Shown in pieces: positions 754-23,170 of a stretch of DNA of 64,000 bases (within the stretch, counting starts at the first letter, position 1; every line of letters starts with the position of its first letter). Made by a program: the position numbers and the translations under genes. The notes beneath the pieces are model-generated. The model saw nothing but the letters and a program-made list of their open reading frames with translations. It was not told the DNA's origin and did not search any database. This stretch comes from Watersipora subatra. Taxonomy: Eukaryota; Bryozoa; Gymnolaemata; Cheilostomatida; Watersiporidae. Location of the stretch: assembly GCF_963576615.1 (NCBI RefSeq), contig NC_088711.1:24708182-24772181 (forward strand), read 5' to 3'.

Positions 754-3369
754 CTGCAACAAAAAATTGATCACACCACTTTATGCCAAATTGGATGAAT
801 ACACAAAAAAGCCAGCGTACAGAGAAAAAAAAGTTTCACTATGTCAAAAATATTTAGTTCAGCCACAGATTTCATCATCATATGATTGATGAAAGATTAG
901 CACAGTAGCAGTTCTGAAATTAGCTTTATGTGAACCATTGATACAAGATCAACCGAATTTAATGGATCAAATTACAATTGATGAAGTAAATAGATGGATG
1001 GATGAGAAGCATGCATACTAAATTCCACAAATAGCTAAAGGAGGCTTCTGCATGATGACTTCTAAACCGTTTTGTGACTTCTGGTCAGCATGTCCTTTTA
1101 GGTACTGCTAAACTATGTTTAAGTAAATAATTTATTAACAGCATGCTTTTAGCAAGGTCTTTTAAGAAAATCACCAAATTTTAGGTAATTTGAAGTATGA
1201 GTATTTTTTGTAATTAGCTAACATATTCATGCAGATTTGGCTGACTAAAAAAACAGCTATGGCCTTTACCAGTCATTTGATGACGCCTGAAAAAAATTTT
1301 TCATTGTTGTTTAGAGCAGCTGGTCAATAAACTGCTAGTGTTCGAATCTTACACATAGAATGATAGTGCAAAAGCTGATAGCTTAATTTCTCTGGCACTA
1401 TTGAAGCGAGCTAAATTGTTGCTCAGACAGATAAAGGATTACCTTCACTTGCACCCTATTTAATCATTTCAGATAATAACACTCTTTCAACTAGTTTTTG
1501 TAGACTTTGTACAAGAAAAATATTTCAGTGATGTGTGGGCAGAGCTTGTCAGCGAGATGACTCTCGCTCTGGTTCTATTAAACTTTACCACTGGAATGAT
1601 AAGGAGCAAGGTTAAGGTAGCAACAGACGTCTATTCTGGAAATAGATCACGACTGTTTAAAACTTGCACTATGCATAAACCAATACTATTTGGAATATGA
1701 GCTTTTGAACTAGTCGAATAAAAAATGAACAGCATGTGATCATTTTGCTAAAAAAGAATGATAATGCTGCTTGGCTATGGCCAATAATTGTAGCCCTTGT
1801 TTAGAAAGCAGTAAAAAGTGAGTTGATACATGGATAATAGATGTAATACAAAAAATAATTCATGATTTGAATCGTACCAGTTTTACAAACATTGATGGAA
1901 TTATATACATTACTAAATGTAAACAGGTTCAGCATATTTTCTCAGCTGAAGTAACGTTGCTAAATATTAATTCCCAACGTAACATAAAAAATATATATAA
2001 AAAATATAGTTTTATAAAATATATATAAAGAAAATATTTTTTTATGTCCAGCGATAAAGAATAAAAAACAGAGCAAAAAAACATACTTCATTTGGAATTT
2101 TTTAGCACATGTCAGTCTTGGGAGATGACTCTTCTTTGCGGTTTAAGGCGTACTATCAGCTATGATTCACAAATAATATTAGCAAGCCAGGGAAAGCAAA
2201 AAGGCTAGGACTAGTTTTGCAAAGGAGCAACTATAAAAATGTTTGCAATGATAATTTAAGCATCATCTGCACATAATTTATTCAATTTTGACATCCTTGT
2301 CAAAATCAACATTCGTAAATTTTGGACAAACTCTAAATATCTTAATAAATTCTAAAAAATGAAAGAGCACAATTGAATCACTACATTGCATTATAATTTA
2401 AATACTACCAGCTGTTTTTCATTAAAGAATTGTTAAAAATTCTTATAAAATCACCTGACATATTCGGCATCCTCACTGACAGCAGTGAGCAGTTCGCTGA
2501 TTAAACTACTGGGATTCTGTTGACCAACTTTCTGCATTGTCTTTCTGATGGCACCTTCTACTTCGGCCATAAAACTCTTAGCACCAAAATACTTTTGCAT
2601 TTCAAGAATTCCAATGAGAGAAGCAGTCATGGTGACTGTAGAGGCATCACCCTCATCAATGTATTGCATGTGGGCCTTCACTGCTGAGCGACAAAAGGCA
2701 ACTCGAATCTAAAAACAAAAGGTGCGATTAATTACAAACTATATCAATATCAATTTGAAGGGATATTAGGCACAGGTTGAAAATCTCTTTTTAGATTGGT
2801 TTAAAAATATCACACTAAATTATAGTGCTAGTTTTTGCACTGAAAACCTAGTTTCCAAAGCACCTGCCACACCATCTACAAAAGCTTTAACAATCATACT
2901 ACTCAAGCTATAGCTATGAACAATTGTAACTTCTCACTGATGTAGAGCTCAATAATTAGAAAAATAGTAAACACCTAAAAACAGCATTAATTACTAAATC
3001 GATACCACCACTGGTTTGAGCAGGTAAATCATTGCATTGGCAGTTAACAAATGGAACCATAGCCCTATCTTATAGTAGGAAAAGACAGAATTATGTAAGT
3101 TTGTGTGAGCCAAGGGAGAGCTACTGTCAAAATAGGTCACAACTGTTTTGCTGTTAACAGCAAACAGCAGCATCCTTAATTCCCTTAGCACTGGTAATGG
3201 TTGCTGTTCAACTCATTTTGCTCTCTATACAAATCTATTGCACTGATAAATACAAATAGATAATCTTAGATTGATACTATCAAGGAGTAAAACAACTTTG
3301 TGCGACAGTCAAAGATCTAGAGAAGCAAGCAAAGCTATGCTGCAGCAATAACTAGGACTGAGGCATTAC
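754..3369. other. Introns 14-15 of the RNF213-like gene (between exons)
   Basis: Apart from exon 15 (2455-2708), I see no coding sequence, repeat ends or RNA gene here. The short open frame at 2994-3191 has no family features. Confidence 0.6.
2455..2708 (-). CDS. RNF213-like exon 15, helical
   Basis: The acceptor is tttttag and the donor gtgatt; it enters in phase 0 and leaves in phase 2. It encodes 84 residues of helical sequence (VTMTASLIGILEMQKYFG; SLISELLTAVSEDAEYV). It sits where RNF213 has a hydrophobic helical segment leading to the CQR motif. Confidence 0.8.
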
Positions 3370-3677
3370 CTTTTGAAGAGCTTTTTCAGCATCTCTTTTT
3401 GCTGAATAATATCCTGCATCCTGTGTAGACATGAATGCAGAGAACACTTTAAGCTGCCGAGAATATATGTTTCCCAACTGTTCAGTAATACTTTGAACAC
3501 TTAGACCATTCACAAAGTGATGAATCCAATCAGGCAAGATAGCCTGAGCTCCAGCTAACAAATCCTTGTACCACTGGCTGTCACTTGCAAATATGAAAGA
3601 TTTGAAATAATCGACGATTCCACTTTTCTCCTCTGGACAAACAGCACCATCAAACACAACACCTTCTTTGCTAATAT
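3370..3677 (-). CDS. RNF213-like exon 14, start of helical arm
   Basis: The acceptor is cttgtttttcag and the donor gtaatg; it enters in phase 1 and leaves in phase 0. It encodes 102 residues. The first ten complete the CBM20 edge (GVVFDGAVCPEE); the rest is helical (DYFKSFIFASDSQWYKDL; LPDWIHHFVNGL). The pattern resembles the helices after CBM20 in RNF213. The intron before it is about 12 kb and is filled with transposons. Confidence 0.8.
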
Positions 3678-4101
3678 CTGAAAAACAAGCAAGTTTAGTT
3701 GGCCAAACTAAACATATTATGCTTCCAATATCTTGATGAAAAATTATTATATAGCATGAACGCGTCATGCCAAAATTAACACTCCTTTCCACTTCTGAGA
3801 CATATAAACTGCATTACGTTGACACATCAGTGTGTAAGAAAACCTCATCAGGGCAAAGAAGAACTATGTTACATTTGTTCGTGCAAAGATAATTGTATTT
3901 TAATTTGGTGATGTAACATGTAGCAATCTGGAGTAAGTATAAAAAGCCAAGATAGCTAATAGCATCTATGCATACAAATTAAAAAAGCTGTTACAGTTAC
4001 CAAATAAAAGCAGCAGAAAGAATTTCAAAACCTTGTTATGCACAGTCAAACCTCAATTTCAAAGTTAATCCATTCCGATACTGGCATTATATGTTAAAAC
4101 T

Positions 4102-4245
4102 GCTGCATATAGTCAGTCAGCCAAGGTAATTTATCATTCAGTTTTGTTTCTACTTAATTTAAACTAAGTTTTGTAACTATAGAGTTATGTAAGGAAGTTT
4201 GTAGATTCCATTTCTTATAGTTTGCCCCAAAATCTGTTGCACCTT
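4102..4245. repeat. Left arm of a diverged inverted repeat bracketing the CXC gene
   Basis: This segment (containing tagtcagtcagcc, tgtttctact and tttgccccaaaat) recurs inverted at 10749-10909. It is preceded at about 4046 by cagtcaaacctcaatttc, which resembles Tigger/mariner-type termini. It may be half of a palindromic miniature element into which the CXC gene was inserted, or a subterminal repeat of that element. Confidence 0.6.
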
Positions 4246-6076
4246 AAATAATTATTTGATTCAAGACATTGACATTTTATTAGCGTAGCCAGCGCAACAA
4301 TATTTATATATAATCCATTGAAATGTGATACGGTTTGTTATGAATATTGCCCAATGAGCATCAATTTCCGGAATAGGCAAACTGATGAAGAAAGTTTGAA
4401 AAAGTCGTGATTGATGCATTAGGATTGATTGATGATCTAAATGACTGCTATAATTGCTACTGAGGCTTGTTGCATTCATCTTGAGGGTAGCTCATCAAAG
4501 CCTGAAACTGTATCACGATTGACAACACTTAAAATAAACAAGATAAAAGAATGCTCTAACAGATGGGCTGCTGTTTCTAAACAACCTGAACATTCCCTTG
4601 CAGTCAAACTGCAATACACTACTCTGTCAACAGATCATGTGTGCTATCAGAGTTGTTATTCTAAGTATACTAATGTTAGTAAGATTGAAAAGGCTGAAAA
4701 ATCACATCTAAAGAACTCATCAACTGTTACATTATTAGAGGTAAGATAAATTGTATTATTATCATTTGATGGTGTAGCTGCTGTATATATTAAATTAAAA
4801 AATTTATTATAAAAAATCTAGGAAGTTTGTAGACTAGACAAATATAATTTGTTATTGTAAGTAGCAGCATGTGAACAATTGGCATGTAGAGACTGAAGGT
4901 TACATGGGCTGCTGCTAATTATCTTTACATATACATGTACTAGGCCTGTACCCAACAAAGCACTTATCTTTTCTTACGAGTATACTTAAGTTTCCCAATG
5001 CGTCCCATCTTCTGATGAGAAGAAAACTAAAAACTCTGAAAGTGAACCAACTGCCAAGCTTTTACGCTCTAGCTCGACTGTGAGGGCACGTCGACGAACC
5101 TCTGTTCTTGATCCTACTTGCATTATATGTCAATGGTTGGGAAAGTTCATAAAATCTAAGCGTACTCACAAAAGGAAATCGGAAGCATTATCACAGACCC
5201 AAACTCTTACAGCGGGTATGCCTATATTAATATAATTATATTTTTGTACTAATCTCTTGAAATTAATAGCTTGAATCTCCATTAGTTAATGTTTTACAGT
5301 CTTAACATTTTAATTAATTATTGTCAATGATCTTTTTCCATACTTTATTATTTAACTGGATTGCAGGACTGCTGAAGAAAGCAGCTGAAATAAGAAATGA
5401 TCATAGAATCTTGATGTATGTAAGAGACGCGGATCCTGTAGCCTCCGAGGTTTGATATCATAAGTCTTGTTATCAAACGTACACCAACTTTCTTCATTAT
5501 GAACCTAAAGGTGGAAGGTATATTAAATACAATTAATCTCTGTGATTAAAAAAACATTGCTTTTGGCATGCTCGTTACTAAATGAATTTTGTCACTTCTG
5601 TTTTTAGCACTCTTAAATGTATGTATTTTTCATTGTTATGTTAAATACTTTCTTACAGAACCAAAAGATTTTAGTAAGTACACTTATTGTATATAAATGT
5701 ACGTTGAGTGGTGTGGTCTAATCTAAGCAAGTTAATCAGGAAACCGATAAGCTAGCAATGATATAATTTACGCTACTACGATTTCACACTTTCTGTTTGT
5801 TGTGGTTTTGGATGCTTCTGGTAGATTCTTAACCATGTTGGCGGTAGATTCTTAACCATGCTGTTGCACCTAATGGGATGTAATATAACACTTGCTTTCT
5901 GGCATATTAGGTTTGTTCATATGTAAATTCAATCAAACGATTGTCCACCTTTTGCAGACATGAGGATGACGAGCTGTATAGATCATTTTTTGAGTCAGTT
6001 GTGAAAAAAAGAATAATAGAAGGGAAAGAGTGTTTCACAATGACTGATCTAGTGGCTTTATATAACAAGCGTAAAG

Positions 6077-6670
6077 GCCCGGCCACACGTAACGAATTAT
6101 TCGTTCAATCTGACCGAATTCACGAATTTCACAGAATTCACAGATTTATTCAGCCGAATATCACAGAATCGTCTGAGCTGTCCATGCACACCGAATTCGT
6201 CAATGAAACGCTTTTAATTAGCTAACCAATTTTTTTAGCGAGCACGATTTTAGTAGCTTTGACAAGTGGTATAGTCCAAGACACGTACGATGACACACAA
6301 TAAAAGTATCAGCGCGATATGACTTGATACATATGATGCAACTGCCTATATGCGCTAGAGATAGCAACTGTTTTTGCGACGGAGCTTTTGCTGCATAAAA
6401 AGAAATTATTATTATTATTGAAAAAGAAACAATTTATAGCTTCTAAAACATCTAAAAGAAAATACTGGATACATGATGAGAAGTTCCTGCCATGGTGAAC
6501 CAATGAGCGAGAACCAACAATAGCGCATATAGACAGTTACATCGTATGTATTCGGTGTGCAAATTGTAATTTTATGTAGCAATAAGCGAGTGTTCTGTGC
6601 TGTGTGCCTCATGCAGCACAAAATTTAGATTTTATTGTTTTATGCTTCAGGACATAAAACTAAGCTAAGC
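6077..6670. mobile_element. Insertion in the CXC gene, class unresolved
   Basis: The coding match stops at about 6075 and resumes at 6676. The inserted block starts gcccggccacacgtaacg, which looks like a transposon terminus. TAAAG at 6072-6076 and 6671-6675 could be a 5-bp target duplication. I did not find a matching inverted right end, and removing the block does not perfectly restore frame. Confidence 0.45.
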
Positions 6671-7628
6671 TAAAGTATCGACTTCGTAAGCAGTTGAACA
6701 GATTGGTCTTTTACAAGCCTGCAAACCAAACTCGATCTGAAATTGTCTATGCTGAACTGCTTCACTGTCTGATATTGTGGCAGAAGACAATTTTCGACTA
6801 GCCAGATCATCAACAACTAATGAAGACTCTGTAGACTGTAATCTTAGCCAGTCGATACTGTCTTCAGCATCTAATGTAAACAGAGAACTGTATTATAGTG
6901 GTCTACACATAAGAAATGTCATAGAAGATTCAACAAAGGAAGAATTTTTCTCATGGCCTCCTACACCTGATGAATTTTCTCATGAACAATGTTTAATGAC
7001 GGTTCCTGTTGATCTTTTCAATATGATTGCTACAATCGTTGGAGAAAATGACGAGCCTAACCCTGACAGCCATGTTGAAGTCTCTAAAGATGTTCAGCTT
7101 AAAATATTGTCAATATGTCAGGACATTATTTACCTGCACTCTAATGGAAAGAAACCTAGATCTAAGTCTCTGGCTTTAGGTCTTACTTTACGTCACATGA
7201 CTGGCTCTTCCGCTATTAGCAAGCTACTCAGTGGACTAGGGCATAGCTGTAGTTATGACACATCTGTACGAATGGAGACAGCATTTGCCATGAAAGCTGT
7301 TTCTGAACATCACGATGGCTTTATACCACCTACGTTTGCAAAGCATAAATTTGCGTTTCTAGTTTTCGACAATATTGATTTTGCAGAGGAGACATTGTCA
7401 GGCCATGGAACCACTCACCACACAAATGGCATATTAGTACAACAAACAGACGAAGAAATTGAAGCTACAGCTTCTACAGCTACAGCTTCTACAGAAGTCT
7501 CCATGGATCACCCTATCTCTAAACGATTTAGATCATTTTTGCGTGCTCTCACTGATATACAACCGTATCATCTTGGGAAGCGTCACAGGCCAGAGGGTAT
7601 ATTAAAGTATGCTGAAGACTCACTAAAG

Positions 7629-9999
7629 CGGTAGTTCTTAACCAGGGGGAATTCCTCCCAGGGGGGAATTTTGGGGGGGAATTTGGCAGTTTGCCAAAGG
7701 GGATTTCCGTGGCACCAATTTTTCTTATATAAAGGGCAGCGAGGAGTGAATGAATTTCAGTATTTTCAACAAAGCCAAGATCTAAAATTGTGGAAAAGCT
7801 AAGGATTGCTACACTACTTGCATATACATACCTGCAATATTAATTGTTCAGTTACCGATTTGGTTTGCATAAACGTATAACATTTTGACAATTTGCTCTG
7901 TAGCCTAACATATGTATGATGTTTTGCTCATGTAGATATTGAAGGTATTCAAATATTTTGATTGCATATCCCATATTGTAGGTGTTAGAAATGTCAAAGA
8001 CAAAAAGACGAACATATGATGATTCTTACCTTAACTATGGATTCACTTGTATGATTAAAAGCGGCATCGAAGTACCACAATGTGTTTTGTGCATGAAAGT
8101 GCTCGCTAACGACTCCAGGAAACCACATCAACTTAAGCAACACTTAAGAAATCAACATGCAGAACGCATGGATAAATCAAAGCCGTTCTTTGAAGCTAAA
8201 GAGAGAGAACTCAAGCGGGAAAAACTGGATTCCACTGGCAGCTTTCATATCCAGGCACAGGCCATTACCGAGGCATCCTATGCTCTGTCTTACCGTATCG
8301 CCAGAGATAAGAAGCCACACACTATTGGTGAAACATCAGTTAAACCTTGTCTGCTGGAGTGTACTAAGATTATTCTCCGAGACACAGCCGCTCAAAAGAT
8401 AGCTGATTTATCCCTCTCAGACAGCACAGTGAAATCGAGGATCGATGATATGTCTGCGGACATAAAGAGGCAAGTAATTGAAAAGATCAAGTCATCTCCC
8501 ATGTTCGCCATTCAACTTGATGAGTCCACTGATGTTGCTAGCATTTCACAGCTGATGGTGTTTGCGCGCTATGTACACAGAGAGACAATTGAGGAAGAAT
8601 TTCTGTTCTGCAGTCCTCTAACAGAGACCACCACAGCTGCTGATGTTATGAACCTAGTTTCCGACTTCTTCAGCAAAGAACATCTGGACTGGGGCGAACT
8701 AATTGGAGTTTGCACTGATGGTGCTCCAGCCATGCTTGGCTGTCGTGCTGGATTTGCACAGTTGGTAAAAGAAAAGAATCCTTTAGTGGTGAGTACCCAT
8801 TGCTTCATTCACAGACAAGCACTAGCAGCAAAAACTCTTCCCAAAGGATTGCAGGAATACCTTTCTTCAGTGATTAAAGTAGTAAACTTTATCAAAGGCT
8901 CTGCCTTGCAAACACGTCTCTTCTACAAGTTATGCGAAGATATTGATGCTGTGCACTCATCACTATTGTTCCACACCAAAGTTCGATGGTTATCAAAGGG
9001 TAACATGGTTATGCGTTTTTTCAATCTACGAACAGAGGTCAATGAGTTCTTGAAAACTCATAACAAACCCAAACTACTGGCTTCAATGCAGGTGGAAGGC
9101 TTCCATCAGTGTCTTGCTTACCTGGTTGACATATTTGGTTCAATCAATGAAGTGAACACAAAGATGCAAGGCAGAGACAGAAATGTGTTGAATGTAACTG
9201 ATAGTATCAATGCATTCAAGGACAAGCTCAAACTCTGGGTGGAAATACTGGCTACTGGGAATGTAAGAGTTTCATTTCTAGTTCTGCATTCATTAGTTGA
9301 CAAGAAAGCTCCTTCCGCTTCTTTGCTAACCGACATAAAGCATCACTTGAACAGCTTGATAGCAGAGTTTGATAGATATTTTCCAAAGTTAGATCCTAGG
9401 ACAGAGCAATTGATGAGCCTGACCCGAGACCCTTTCAGACGCAATGTCCTCGAGATTTCGGAACAGCTTCAGGAGAAGTTTTTGGAGCTGACAAACAACT
9501 CTGCATGAAAAGATGACTTCAAGGAGCTATCAATAGAGCACTTTTGGGTTCAGGCCCAAAGATTGTATCCCAACATAAGCCTGGCCGCTTTCAAGATGCT
9601 CATACCATTTGCTTCCACATATCTTTGCGAGTCAGCAGTTTCAGCAATGCTAACCATAAAGAGCAAATCTAAAAACTGTCTGGAAGTAGAAGCTGACCTA
9701 CGGTGTGCCCTATCTACAACAACTCCTAACATCAAAATTCTGGTCAGCTCCAAACAAACACAGAAATCGCACTAGTCTGCTAACTGTCTTACAATGATAG
9801 ATATATTGAGTTTCAATATACATTCATTTTTAATATTCCATGTAAATATGACTGTAATAAATGCATATATACATATATATACATGTATATATATGTATAT
9901 AGGTTGTATATGTAAATAAAGTTCACTATCTAGTTGCAGTGCATTCTTTGAAGGAGTTGAGAGGGGGGAATTTCTGTCTTTAGGTTTGGAAAAGCACTG
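7629..9999 (+). mobile_element. hAT transposon (ZBED type), 2371 bp, in the CXC gene
   Basis: The 8-bp target duplication CACTAAAG is at 7621-7628 and 10000-10007; 8 bp is the hAT signature. The left end reads cggtagttcttaacc and the right end, inverted, cagtgcttttccaaacc, so the termini are short and imperfect, as usual for hAT. Removing the element and one duplication restores the reading frame of the interrupted CXC gene across the junction, which fixes the boundaries. Confidence 0.92.
7991..9775 (+). pseudogene. hAT transposase with N-terminal BED finger, one in-frame stop
   Basis: The frame runs from ATG 7991 to the TAG ending at 9775, about 594 codons, broken only by TGA at 9506-9508. 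The N-terminus has a BED zinc finger (CVLC, then HLRNQH). The middle has the FAIQLDESTD and GVCTDGAPAM blocks typical of ZBED5/FAM200/GTF2IRD2-type hAT transposases, and the THCFIHRQALAAKTLP motif. After the stop the frame continues into the C-terminal dimerisation region (CESAVSAMLTIKSKSKN). The product would bind the element's termini and excise it. One substitution separates it from an open frame, so it is a young insertion. It has no introns. Confidence 0.88.
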
Positions 10000-10748
10000 C
10001 ACTAAAGGAAGCCAAATTACGTGTTGACAAAGCTAGTGCTAAAGACTTGTTTACGTTACTAGAGATGCATTACAGAAACATCTGCTAGGAGTCAACTACC
10101 AGGCAATCATCTGGCAGCTATCTTTGCCTGCTAAAATTAAACCTCCATCTCCTCATGGCTTTGGCTGGATATTGCAGGATGAGAAGTTGGATATTAAGTG
10201 GATGGAAAACCCTACTGCTCCACCCAGTCTAATGCAGACAGTTTACTGTTCTTGCAAAAAGTCTGCCTGTCAAAGTGGTAAATGTTCCTGTAGTAACTCC
10301 CAACTAAAATGCACTGACTTATGCAAATGTGATGGTTGCAGCAACAGTGATCAAGATTGGACAATGCACAGCATGTTTCCAGTGACTTTGAGGAGGACTT
10401 TGATAATTTTGATGACTAAGTAAATCTGTAATTAGGCTATTTTTTTTATTTTTTGTCAAATCTACATCAAATTTTAGTCAACATTTATTATTTTCTAAAT
10501 ATAGAATTCGAAGTTGTCCGTCTTGTATTACATTCAGATAAGAAACAATTCTACTTTTGCTACAAAAGAGGTAAATCAACAATACATGTTTGCATGATAT
10601 AATTTTAAACATAACTTGATTGTTATGCACATATATTATAAAGATAGTAACAGCCTTTCTCAAAATATTTCTTTTTGGCACAATAGGGACAATTATTGCA
10701 AATTGGCCAAACTTTAGCGGATAACAATTTTGGTAATAACTCGAAAAC

Positions 10749-10909
10749 GTGCATAGAAATTTTGGGGCAAAAGTTTATAAATAAGTTCCTTATTATATAG
10801 AGAATGTTTTTCCACTATCAAACTTTAGTTTAAATGAAGTAGAAACGAAATTTTATTTCTAGTCACTTTTCTGCCATGTGGCTGACTGACTAATATTGTA
10901 GCAAATGCC
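10749..10909. repeat. Right arm of the inverted repeat bracketing the CXC gene
   Basis: Its reverse complement aligns with 4102-4245 by eye with scattered mismatches and small gaps. It lies about 330 bp after the end of the CXC gene. Confidence 0.6.
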
Positions 10910-11115: not shown

Positions 11116-11580
11116 TTAAACCATAACTGCCACGTACAACTTTTATCGTTTATTCTAGGTAAGTCAGACACACTGATTCCAACTTTGTACTCAAAATAAA
11201 GATTGGTCCACTGACTTTCAAATTCATGAAGGCTTTTTTACAGCGTTTCAATATCGGTCTTGAAAACAACACAATCGGCACAACAAGCCTGCCCATAAAT
11301 ATGTGATGTATGCTAGCTTTTTAAAAATGGATGTTGGGGATGTTTAGTCCAATTTAGAATGAGAGAGGTGGGTGTCTTAAAACCCATTATTATCTAAATT
11401 CAGCCATCAAAATAATCTCAGTCTGTTATGAAAGGTAGATAAACTATTTAAGATTACTCGTAGCTTGTTACAGGATGTTTAATAGGCTGAACGCCAAATA
11501 AAATTAGCTCAAAAAAGCGTGATAACAACGTTATTTTGTGAATCAATCAAATCAATCAATACGTGGCAATTATGGTTTAA
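11116..11580. mobile_element. TTAA-flanked fold-back miniature element, copy A
   Basis: TTAA at 11116-11119 and 11577-11580 flank termini ACCATAACTGCCACGTACAA and its imperfect complement. It shares internal sequence with copies B (17341-18201) and C (20606-21402). No coding capacity. TTAA duplication points to the piggyBac or Kolobok groups; the terminal bases do not decide which. Confidence 0.85.
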
Positions 11581-16344: not shown

Positions 16345-17280
16345 CAGACGGTTCCCAACCTACAAACGAGTTACATTCCGAACGATTGTTCGTAAGGTGA
16401 ATTTGTTCGTAAGTTGCTTCAGTGCTATATTTTGTATTATAATTTATGTTTAAGGCCTATATGAGTATATTGAAGGTTTATATAAGTATGTTTAAGGCTT
16501 GTATAAGCAACCTGTATTGGTTTGTACTGAAAAAAATATTTAATAAAATGGAGATAATACTTTAGTGGACGCCGGGCCAGGACACTGCATTTCTTATTTA
16601 TTGTATGTCTTGTCCTTTTTTATTATATTGTCGTTTTAATCATTATGCTATCACTTATCGTTGTTGTCTTATTTTTTTTATGTGCTGTCCTTTTATTATA
16701 TCGTTGTTTCACTCGTTATGCTATTGTTATATCTGATATCCCGTCATAACACTATCACTGGCCATCACTTATCGTCACTTATATTGTTGTCATACCAACG
16801 CACTAGCGGTCCTATTTATTCACCTTGTTAGCCGGTGTTCTTACCGTTTGCCGTCAGCCGGAACAGTTGATATTATTGTATATAAAGGATCACGCTCACT
16901 TAGTTGATCAGAGCAGTAGCCGTATGCTCCTCGCCTAGTGAAATTTCCTTCGCTAATAAAAAGCTGAATGAAACTACACGCACTCTCTTATCTTTATTTA
17001 TTATTCTAGATCGTGACAAGTAAAGGCCGGCAAATTCCTTTACAATACGTACAGTAAAAATAAAAAAGTTCTTTGCGCACTGGAGATACGTTCACGCACT
17101 TATGCGCTGCAACGAACTGGGCAGAGAAAGGTGGATGCTGGGTTGGGCTTCTGAGTAGTGCCTATTTCCGCCGCTAATACGTCGGTAATACCGTCGGTAT
17201 TAGCGGCGGACATACGCGCAGACCTGTTCGTATGTACGGGTTGTTCGTAACTCGAATGTTCGTAAGTAGGGAACCGTCTG
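16345..17280. mobile_element. TA-flanked miniature element with nested LTR
   Basis: TA at 16343-16344 and 17281-17282. The termini are inverted copies: cagacggttcccaacctaca at left, cagacggttccctacttacg (reverse complement) at right. Both ends are followed by repeated ttcgtaa motifs. It belongs to the mariner/pogo type by TA target. The centre is replaced by an LTR-like insertion. Confidence 0.8.
16561..17018 (+). repeat. Solo LTR-like sequence inside the TA-flanked element
   Basis: It runs from tttagtggacgccgggcc to ctagatcgtgaca. It has a tatataaag promoter-like site at about 16878 and an aataaaaag polyadenylation-like site at about 16956. The expected first TG is altered and no target duplication is clear. 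Confidence 0.5.
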
Positions 17281-17340
17281 TAGTAATAATGTAGAAAGCT
17301 ATTAAGCTATTATAATAGCGGTAACTATTGGTAGCAGTAA

Positions 17341-18201
17341 TTAAACCATAACTGCCACATACAACTTTTATCCTCTTTTCTAAGTAAATCAGACACGCTG
17401 ATTCCAATTTTGTATTCAAAATAACGATTGGTTCACTAACTTTCAAATTCATGAAGGCTTTTTACAGCGTTTCAATATCGGTCTCGAAAACAACACGATC
17501 GGCACAACAAGCTCCACCCATAAATATGTGACGTATGCTAGCTTTTTAGGAATGGAAATCGGGAATGTTTATTTCAATTTAGAATGATAGAGATGAGTGT
17601 CTTAAAACCCATTATTATCTAAATTCAGCCTTCATAACAATCTGTCTTTTCTGAAAGGTAGATAAGCTATTTAACATTGCATATTTAAAAATATGCTCAC
17701 AAAAGCGCGATTACAACGCCAGCTTGTGATAAAATCGTGCTTTATTGAACTCATTTTTCTCGGCGTTCAGCCTATTAAACATCCTGTAACAAGCTACGAG
17801 TAATTTTAAATAGTTTTCTAAAACTATTTAAAATTACTGTTATGTTTACTATTTAAAAACTGTTATGAAAAGTAAATCTACTTTTCATAACAGATTGAGA
17901 TTATTTTGAAGGCTGAATTTAGATAATAATGGGTTTTAAGACACCCATCTTTATCATTCTAAATCGGACTAAACATCCCGAACTTCCATTCCTAAAACGC
18001 TAGGATACATCGCATATTTATGAGCGGAGCTTGCTGTGCTGATTGTGTTGTTTTCGAGACGAATATTGAAACGCTTTAAAAAAGCCTTCATGGCTTTGAA
18101 AGTTAGTGACTAATCTTTATTCTGAGTACAAAACCAAAATCAGCGTGTCTGGTTTACCTAGAAAAAAACGATAAGAGTTGTACGTGGCAGTTATGGTTTA
18201 A
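17341..18201. mobile_element. TTAA-flanked fold-back miniature element, copy B, 861 bp
   Basis: TTAA at 17341-17344 and 18198-18201. Nearly the whole element is one long inverted repeat: the first ~430 bp are the reverse complement of the last ~430 bp with scattered changes. The ends are ACCATAACTGCCAC and its complement. Same family as copies A and C. Confidence 0.88.
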
Positions 18202-20605: not shown

Positions 20606-21402
20606 TTAAAGCATAACTGTCACGAACAACTTTTATCGTGTTTACTAGGTATATCAGACACGCTGATTCCGATTTTGTACTCAAAATAAAGATTAGTCCA
20701 CTAACCTTCAAAGTCATTTAGGCTTTTTCAAAGCGTTTCAATATCCATTTCGAAAACAACACAATCGGCATTACAAGCTCCGCCCATAAATATGTGACGA
20801 AACCTAGCTTTTTCAGAAACGGAAGTTAGGAATGTTTAGTCCGATTTAGAATAATAGAGATGGGTGTCTTAAAACCCATTATTATCTAAATCCAGCCTGT
20901 AAAATAGTTTCAGTTTTTTATGAAAGGGATATAAACTATTTAAAATTGCTCGCAGCTTGTTACATGACGTTTAAATGGGCTGGACGCCGAGAAAAATGAG
21001 CTCAAAAAATGCGGTTTTATCACAAGCTAGCGTTGTTATCGCGCTTTTTAAATATGCAATGCTAAATAGCTTATCTACCTTTCAGAAAAGACTGATATTA
21101 TTTTTAAGGCTGAATTTAGATATTAATGGATTTTAAAACACCCATCTCTATTATTCTAAATCAGTCTAAACATCCCTACGTAACTTCTGTTCCTAAAAAG
21201 CTAGGTTACGTCACAATTTTATGGGCCGAGGTTGTTATGCCGATCGTGTGTTTTTCGAGTCCGATATTAAAATGCTATAAAAAATCCTTCATTACTCTGA
21301 AAGTTAGTGGCCTAATCTTTATTTTGATTACAAAATCGGAATCAGCGTGTCTGATTTATCTAGTAAATACGATAAAAGTTTTACGTGACAGTTATGGTTT
21401 AA
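20606..21402. mobile_element. TTAA-flanked fold-back miniature element, copy C, 797 bp
   Basis: TTAA at 20606-20609 and 21399-21402. Termini agcataactgtcacgaaca and the inverted accataactgtcacgtaaa match copies A and B. Most of the element is palindromic. The 98-codon open frame inside one arm is fortuitous. It lies only about 100 bp from the CBM20 exon at 20352-20501, in its upstream intron. Confidence 0.85.
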
Positions 21403-23170
21403 GCCAAGTTCTGCTACTGTGATTAAAATTAAAAACCATATTGTATGATATAGCAATTAACATGTTTTGTAGTTTGTTGTTACAACTTGATAACGTGGTA
21501 CACTGCAAGGCAACATTGAATTCAACTTGCATACAAATATTTTGATGAACAGGGGCTGGGGGATTTAAAAACAAAGTCATATTAGAAGAGTAACATTAGT
21601 CTTTTGATTGTTGACAAAAGGTGCTTTTGACTTGTTATCAGAACAAAATCTCCTTCTCAAATGTAAAAGAAAAAGTATCCCAGTTTATTGAAAATATTCA
21701 TAACTACATTTTGAGTAACGCATTTGGTGTCAAAATAGATTATTAATTACGATTGGGAAATCATACAAAAAATAGACTACCCTAAGACACTTATATTTCG
21801 CTAGTATTTAGTTTCGTGAGTAGCATAGAGAGTAAAATTTTGATGCAACTTAATTTTGCAACTCTGATGAGTGCGAAAATGATGTGAAAATAAATGCAGT
21901 GGAACAAACATAATTAGATTTCTTAGGTTCGGTTCACCAGTAAGAAAAAATTTTTTAATTTGGTACTAGTTTGTAATTGTAAACCGCAGGTAGAATTGTG
22001 TGGCCGAGATCGATAATGCAATTTGATCGATTGCTGCCATTTTTTTCTTGGACTATCAATGAACAAAGCTATTTAATTCCGTGTTTTCGCTTGTTTGTTA
22101 TGATAGTTTTGTTTCGCTCATGAAACTTTCGCGAGAGGATGACTCCGCGAAAACGCGAAAGTTAGATGAGGCGAATATATAAGTGTCCTAGGGTAAATAG
22201 TTCTTTGTAACTAATTTCTAAAAAGCTCTACCCACATTCAACCCCACATGCATAAACAATGTATGATAACGACAAAGATATTTGGTTTGCTCAAAAACTT
22301 CCGTTTACAACATGCATTTTTAAGTCTGAATGACGATCAATATGATACAGATTCAACTAAGCTAAAATAAACAGATAAAACAAACCACTGTAATTTTAAT
22401 CACCAGCAGCTGTAAAGCCCTCAAACATATTGTAACAGATGGTTGTGAGCATCACTTGACTATATGCATTGTTACAATATCATTATTTGGATAATTTGCA
22501 GAAGATGAGGCACAGCAATAAAGTCTAATTGACAGCAGGCAGCTTTGTTTTAATTCACTGTAATCAAAATAGAATTGATTTAGAAGATAAAACTTTATCT
22601 AAATTACTAAATACTAGATCTATAAATCTAGTAAATATCTAGATTACTAAATAGCATTAACTTCGAATGCTCACCAAAATGCAAGGACTAAATTGGAATC
22701 ATTAGCTCAGTATTCCTAAATAATTCAGCGCCGTGACAATTTGTTATAATCATTTCATGTCACCTGTGCAACAGTTCTCAAAATTCTAAGAGCAAAGCTT
22801 GTAACTAGTCAAATTCATATTATTGTTTCATTAATGAAACAATAATACAATGAAACATCTGTAAAGTTAATACTAAGAATAACGTAGCACCTCCTAAACT
22901 TTAGCTGATCTAGAGATACAAAAACAACACAATATTGCAAGTTTGCACTGCAAACTTATTTATGAACTAGAGACACATTCAAATTAGTTTATCATTACGC
23001 CGAGTTTCAGATTCTTCAAAATTGCAATAAAAAAACTTTGAACAATTCAAATGGGTACAAAGTACCTATAATATAAAACAACCAGAAAGATATTTTGGAG
23101 GCATTCTGTGAGTGGAACAAGTTACATTTATTCCACTCACTGAATGTGGTAGTCTTAAATATAAGCACTA
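21403..23170. other. Intron sequence, nothing coding
   Basis: I see only AT-rich sequence and small palindromes: a 30-bp perfect one at 22818-22847 (attattgtttcatt and its complement) and repeated tagatt/ctagta at 22598-22650. Confidence 0.5.

Follow-up and report, generated by a model that had tools for sequence, protein, structure and literature searches.

The Academ superfamily of DNA transposons and its AcademX lineage were reportedly described by Kapitonov and Jurka in 2010 and by Kojima in 2020 (cited in PMC4455052 and PMC10045372). The AcademX nuclease is of the XPG type, a Cys8 zinc finger has been described in Academ, and Zator is another superfamily with 3-bp target duplications. 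In published work, Academ is listed as a DNA-transposon superfamily (PMC4455052, PMC9587614) and is reported to have been amplified in bivalves, where its mean length is 5565 bp (PMC10294476). Duplication length in the Academ lineages is tied there to the encoded nuclease or helicase, such that AcademX combines 3 or 4 bp with a nuclease and AcademH combines 9 or 10 bp with a helicase (PMC10045372). Our literature search turned up no account of the XPG part in Academ, and none of a CXC transposase.

We analysed a window of 64,000 nucleotides from the bryozoan Watersipora subatra, in which a preliminary description had placed a decaying, self-spreading CXC-cluster gene of unknown class at 4441..10419, bracketed by inverted repeats inside an intron of an unrelated gene. 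Open exons were indeed found at that position, but the unit spans 4110-10892 and contains a nested hAT element (7629-9999) that had been overlooked. We conclude that this unit is a decayed cut-and-paste DNA transposon, and the host-gene reading is dropped. Judged from its sequence, it is very probably a dead copy of the AcademX type. That strength reflects the 3-bp duplications and a likely nuclease, in a comparison made with published descriptions of Academ. An unknown class finds no support, since the domain set together with the 3-bp duplications matches AcademX as described in print (PMC10045372). Within this known superfamily, the window element most likely represents a new family. Its anatomy is given in Table 1.

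Table 1. Features of the transposon copy in the window, with the basis of each assignment
Feature	Position	Strand	Basis
Left 3-bp target duplication, ATA	4107..4109	.	flank comparison
Left terminal inverted repeat (TIR), left type, TAGTCAGTCAGCCAAGG...	4110..4256	+	boundary common to 19 further left-type sites; aligns to right end
Exon 1, N-terminal Cys/His motifs, still open	4441..4740	+	same exon in L039; donor GTAAG at 4741
Exon 2, second Cys/His motif	5000..5214	+	limits inferred; aligned with L039, L040, L042
Exon 3, in-frame TGA 5453-5455	5367..5517	+	stop absent from L039, L040, L042
Exon 4 start	5958..6074	+	exon end and next intron replaced from 6075
MITE-like DNA replacing ~540 bp of the element	6075..6545	.	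related DNA (72-78%) adjoins L042
Core exon: start of D-D-E core, FDNIDF...GTTH, first Asp	6756..7620	+	open frame, copy alignments
Nested hAT transposon (7629-9999), flanked by 8-bp duplications CACTAAAG	7621..10007	+	Dimer_Tnp_hAT, genome matches, duplication
Deletion joint, ~3.24 kb gone relative to L039/L045	10058..10060	.	removes the second Asp, the Glu and the XPG-like module; size derived by hand from alignment coordinates
Last-exon remnant with CXC cluster	10061..10423	+	TCR E 5.9e-6; frame diverges from L045 past cluster
Right TIR, right type, ...ATGTGGCTGACTGACTA	10735..10892	-	alignment to left end; shared TIR sites
Right 3-bp target duplication, ATA	10893..10895	.	flank comparison

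The termini of the window element are inverted repeats (TAGTCAGTCAGCC...). They have diverged, and 4101-4256 aligns with 10735-10903 at 63% identity (E 1e-7), which bears out the bracketing repeats of the preliminary description. The two protein landmarks it named are likewise present, the FDNIDF...GTTH block within a 292-aa frame (6756-7634) and the tesmin-like C-terminal cluster as a Pfam TCR match. Exon 1, the start of the core exon and the CXC cluster can still be read, as would be expected of a transposase-derived host gene or an ordinary multi-exon CXC gene retained for its function. That reading has to contend with the stop in exon 3, an altered acceptor, an exon 4 whose end is gone, a hAT element separating the two halves and a reading frame that changes past the CXC cluster. 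The copy moreover has TIRs and a target duplication of its own and is 92-97% identical in DNA to other copies over the aligned stretches, and we consider a retained gene of either kind extremely improbable; the ordinary host gene was rejected on the termini and duplications. The altered acceptor is that of exon 2, which is preceded by CAA in the window vs CAG in L039, L040 and L042, and this splice site has probably been lost. The decay noted earlier comprises the exon-3 stop, the deletion of ~3.2 kb and the nested hAT, and the window copy can no longer encode a full transposase.

The nested element, of 2.37 kb, carries a hAT dimerisation domain (PF05699, Dimer_Tnp_hAT, E 1.3e-8), with further Pfam matches to DUF4371 and BED below cut-off, and is flanked on both sides by the 8-bp duplication. 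When the query was compared with the genome, 46 of 47 DNA matches fell on its positions 3176-5554, equivalent to 7616-9994 of the window, and the full-length ones were 90-95% identical. Some 36 additional long copies of this hAT, if not more, were noted, also at 90-95% identity. In sequence terms, the nested hAT is a later arrival that is unrelated to the CXC-cluster element.

To judge the spread of the CXC-cluster element itself, we searched the 783.7-Mb assembly (239 contigs). The 292-aa block has at least 133 matches at E <= 0.001, the window included. Seven non-window matches are 77-94% identical and cover at least 105 residues; 15 short ones cover only the first 62-71 residues, at 82-89%; the remainder are a handful of fragments along with many families at 27-49%. 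A later module (L045:2126-3625) has at least 89 matches, from a search in which 86 of 1659 first-look candidates were scored. Exons 1-4 are common to the window, L039 and L040 and partly present in L042, with L041 retaining only the end of that part, and both L039 and L040 extend well past the point at which the window jumps to its CXC exon. Four relatives (L047-L050, in the close pairs L047/L050 and L048/L049) have a single long frame of 1298-1366 aa, in the order core, XPG-like module, CXC cluster.

Terminal repeats and target duplications were then compared across the genome. Allowing up to 3 mismatches, the TIR patterns occur at 37 places for the right type and 20 for the left type, and at 0 in a backward-read control. 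An identical 3-bp duplication flanks 19 of 20 end pairs, vs 0.021 expected by chance per end pair; A and T predominate among the 19 duplications. In 15 of 15 compared end pairs (13 shorter derivatives, L041 and L042) exactly three flanking bases match. Matching duplications also flank the window copy (ATA) and L039/L045 (ACA), as well as two copies of a second family, L048 and L049, whose ends are TAGTAGAGCAGG...CCTGCTCTACTA and whose duplications are TTA and AAT; the left flank of L049 as printed repeats the first base of the element. The one failing pair is L040, with TAA vs TTA. The ends C9:21997265, C6:3044702 and C5:7231482 stayed unpaired, as no right end was found. Together with the block matches, these shared boundaries and duplications substantiate the self-spreading element that had been proposed.

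Could the copies instead have arisen by segmental or assembly duplication rather than transposition? Such duplication does occur here: L047 and L050, ~83 kb apart on C6, are 99.9% identical over 7.6 kb, flanks included, and the right-end stretches of L014 and L042, ~97 kb apart on C10, are identical over the 41 bases compared. We conclude that these near-identical blocks are segmental or assembly duplications. L014 shares its right flank with L042, and its right end was left unpaired. As an account of the copies in general we give this origin next to no credence, against which stand the many contigs, the differing flanks and the exact 3-bp duplications at shared ends.

What the fuller copies encode bears on the class of the transposon. 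Their proteins comprise N-terminal Cys/His motifs, a D...D...E core, a module with an XPG/FEN acidic pattern and a tesmin/LIN54-type CXC cluster. The check for acidic catalytic residues that had been proposed came out positive: 8 of 8 alignment rows carry the first Asp (FDNIDF), all 7 rows that reach the site carry the second (VVFDQAIY), and none of the 20 distinct stretches covering the Glu (IEQT) has lost it, some of these stretches coming from broken copies and some being near-identical. In P0001 these acids are residues 225, 385 and 633, and two conserved Asp (260 and 263, A3 row 1) compete as the first catalytic residue. Against Pfam the core matched DUF6589 alone, in three proteins (L047, L050 and L018; best E 8.4e-6, which falls short of the curated cut-off). 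The core profile had no match in PDB, two proteins had none in NCBIfam, and we found no paper on DUF6589.

The module is a likely nuclease, tentatively assigned to the XPG type on its motifs and weak EXO1 matches. Seven acids (D73, D118, E220, D222, D244, D246 and D303) show no change across 6 of 6 members and lie, with the expected spacing, at what we take to be the FEN/XPG metal-binding places. In a wider set of 11, L098 and L099 do not extend to the first two acid sites, L097 does not extend to D73, and L096 departs at E220 and D222. L046 has Glu at 222. A profile of the module matched EXO1 in PDB over the GCD motif at E 0.066 and 0.026, above the usual cut-off; a further EXO1-aligned stretch (ER-RR) carries no statistical weight. 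Pfam reported no XPG or PIN family in any of the 11 members. A single XPG-like sequence compared with PDB gave only a chance match and none to the XPG family. Unlike XPG, FEN and EXO1 proteins, the module forms part of a fusion, with a transposase-like core on one side and a CXC cluster on the other. A profile of that cluster matched LIN54 (5fd3) at E 5.8e-6, weakening to 0.01 with a wider alignment; the cysteine spacing is that of the LIN54/tesmin CXC domain, with one cluster seen here, where it forms the C-terminal part of a transposon protein.

Set against the described lineages, the element resembles the published AcademX in its putative DDE-type core, its likely added nuclease and its 3-bp duplications; the 19 end pairs with 3 bp fall within the 3 or 4 bp given for AcademX. 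AcademH is placed in the same superfamily in the literature, but combines 9-10 bp with a helicase, whereas here the duplications are of 3 bp, the added module is nuclease-like and Pfam found no helicase family in the fuller proteins. The alternative is another or undescribed superfamily that also makes 3-bp duplications and came by its XPG-like nuclease and CXC cluster independently. DUF6589, the sole match of the core, has no named function, and the likeness to Academ is one to published descriptions, both of which leave room for this alternative; 3-bp duplications alongside an added nuclease are nevertheless the published combination for AcademX (PMC10045372), and we regard a separate superfamily as unlikely. 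Relatives were also sought among viruses, where three pattern scans of viral contigs matched 3, 106 and 15 stretches, none of them a relative.

If the AcademX reading holds, the element would operate in the manner of a DDE cut-and-paste transposon aided by a helper nuclease. The Cys/His motifs, the CXC cluster or both would bind the element ends; the core, presumably RNase-H-like, would cut and join; the XPG-like module might trim ends, flaps or hairpins; and the 3-bp duplication would be the product of staggered joining. The window copy would have been inserted by such transposition, and then have lost ~3.2 kb, had ~0.5 kb swapped for MITE-like DNA and received the hAT. Having retained its ends, it could at most be mobilised by a partner's enzyme.

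Shorter copies bear on how the ends are used. Thirteen foldback-like derivatives of ~3.3 to 4.0 kb (L043, L044 and 11 further places) all have an outer 3-bp duplication. L043 carries exons 1-3, no more of the core exon than its start, and the right end together with its TIR, beyond which lies an inverted left-end piece; the other 12 share that internal right TIR, each with an identical flank, and both L043 and L044 contain long inverted repeats. The AATCAGTCAG sites were tried as outer ends and rejected, as none of the 13 has a duplication on that reading; their flank is constant, and they are therefore internal right ends of composite copies. Because the derivatives are without most of the core, they point to movement in trans. 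In L039/L045, an inverted left end adjoins the longer unit. Among the window-family insertions, all 17 that show a matching 3-bp duplication combine a left-type end with a right-type end, a pairing that for 15 of them came from searching both end types; L040, the sole copy seen with two right-type ends, has no matching duplication. One scheme would have the ends read by the LIN54-like CXC cluster and processed by the EXO1-like nuclease, one end of each type being needed, and a left end duplicated in inverted orientation giving a foldback-like derivative that spreads in trans; taken as a whole, we consider this scheme rather improbable.

The transposon reading explains as a transposase a CXC-cluster protein that resembles an uncharacterised gene, and such frames can therefore be masked instead of entering annotations as host genes. 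This genome holds many diverged families, among them some that have long open frames, and offers a setting in which to study what an added nuclease does in cut-and-paste transposition.

The supposed location within an intron of an unrelated gene was not established. Likely minus-strand exons lie below the element (frame 3352-3813; 2463-2708), and Pfam had no match for 3352-3690. Above it, the short frame 11150-11320 resembles, by eye, those at 17174-17461 and 21120-21422 (KAFMNLKVS...), and it therefore looks like a repeat; we suggest that the three belong to an interspersed repeat. Two further observations concern the copies elsewhere. At the inverted left end adjoining L040, a piece of exon 1 occurs in tandem copies spaced by 144 bases (L046:2996-3600). 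By eye, an 8-mer, GTTTCTAC, is common to the inner inverted repeats of the window family and of L048/L049.
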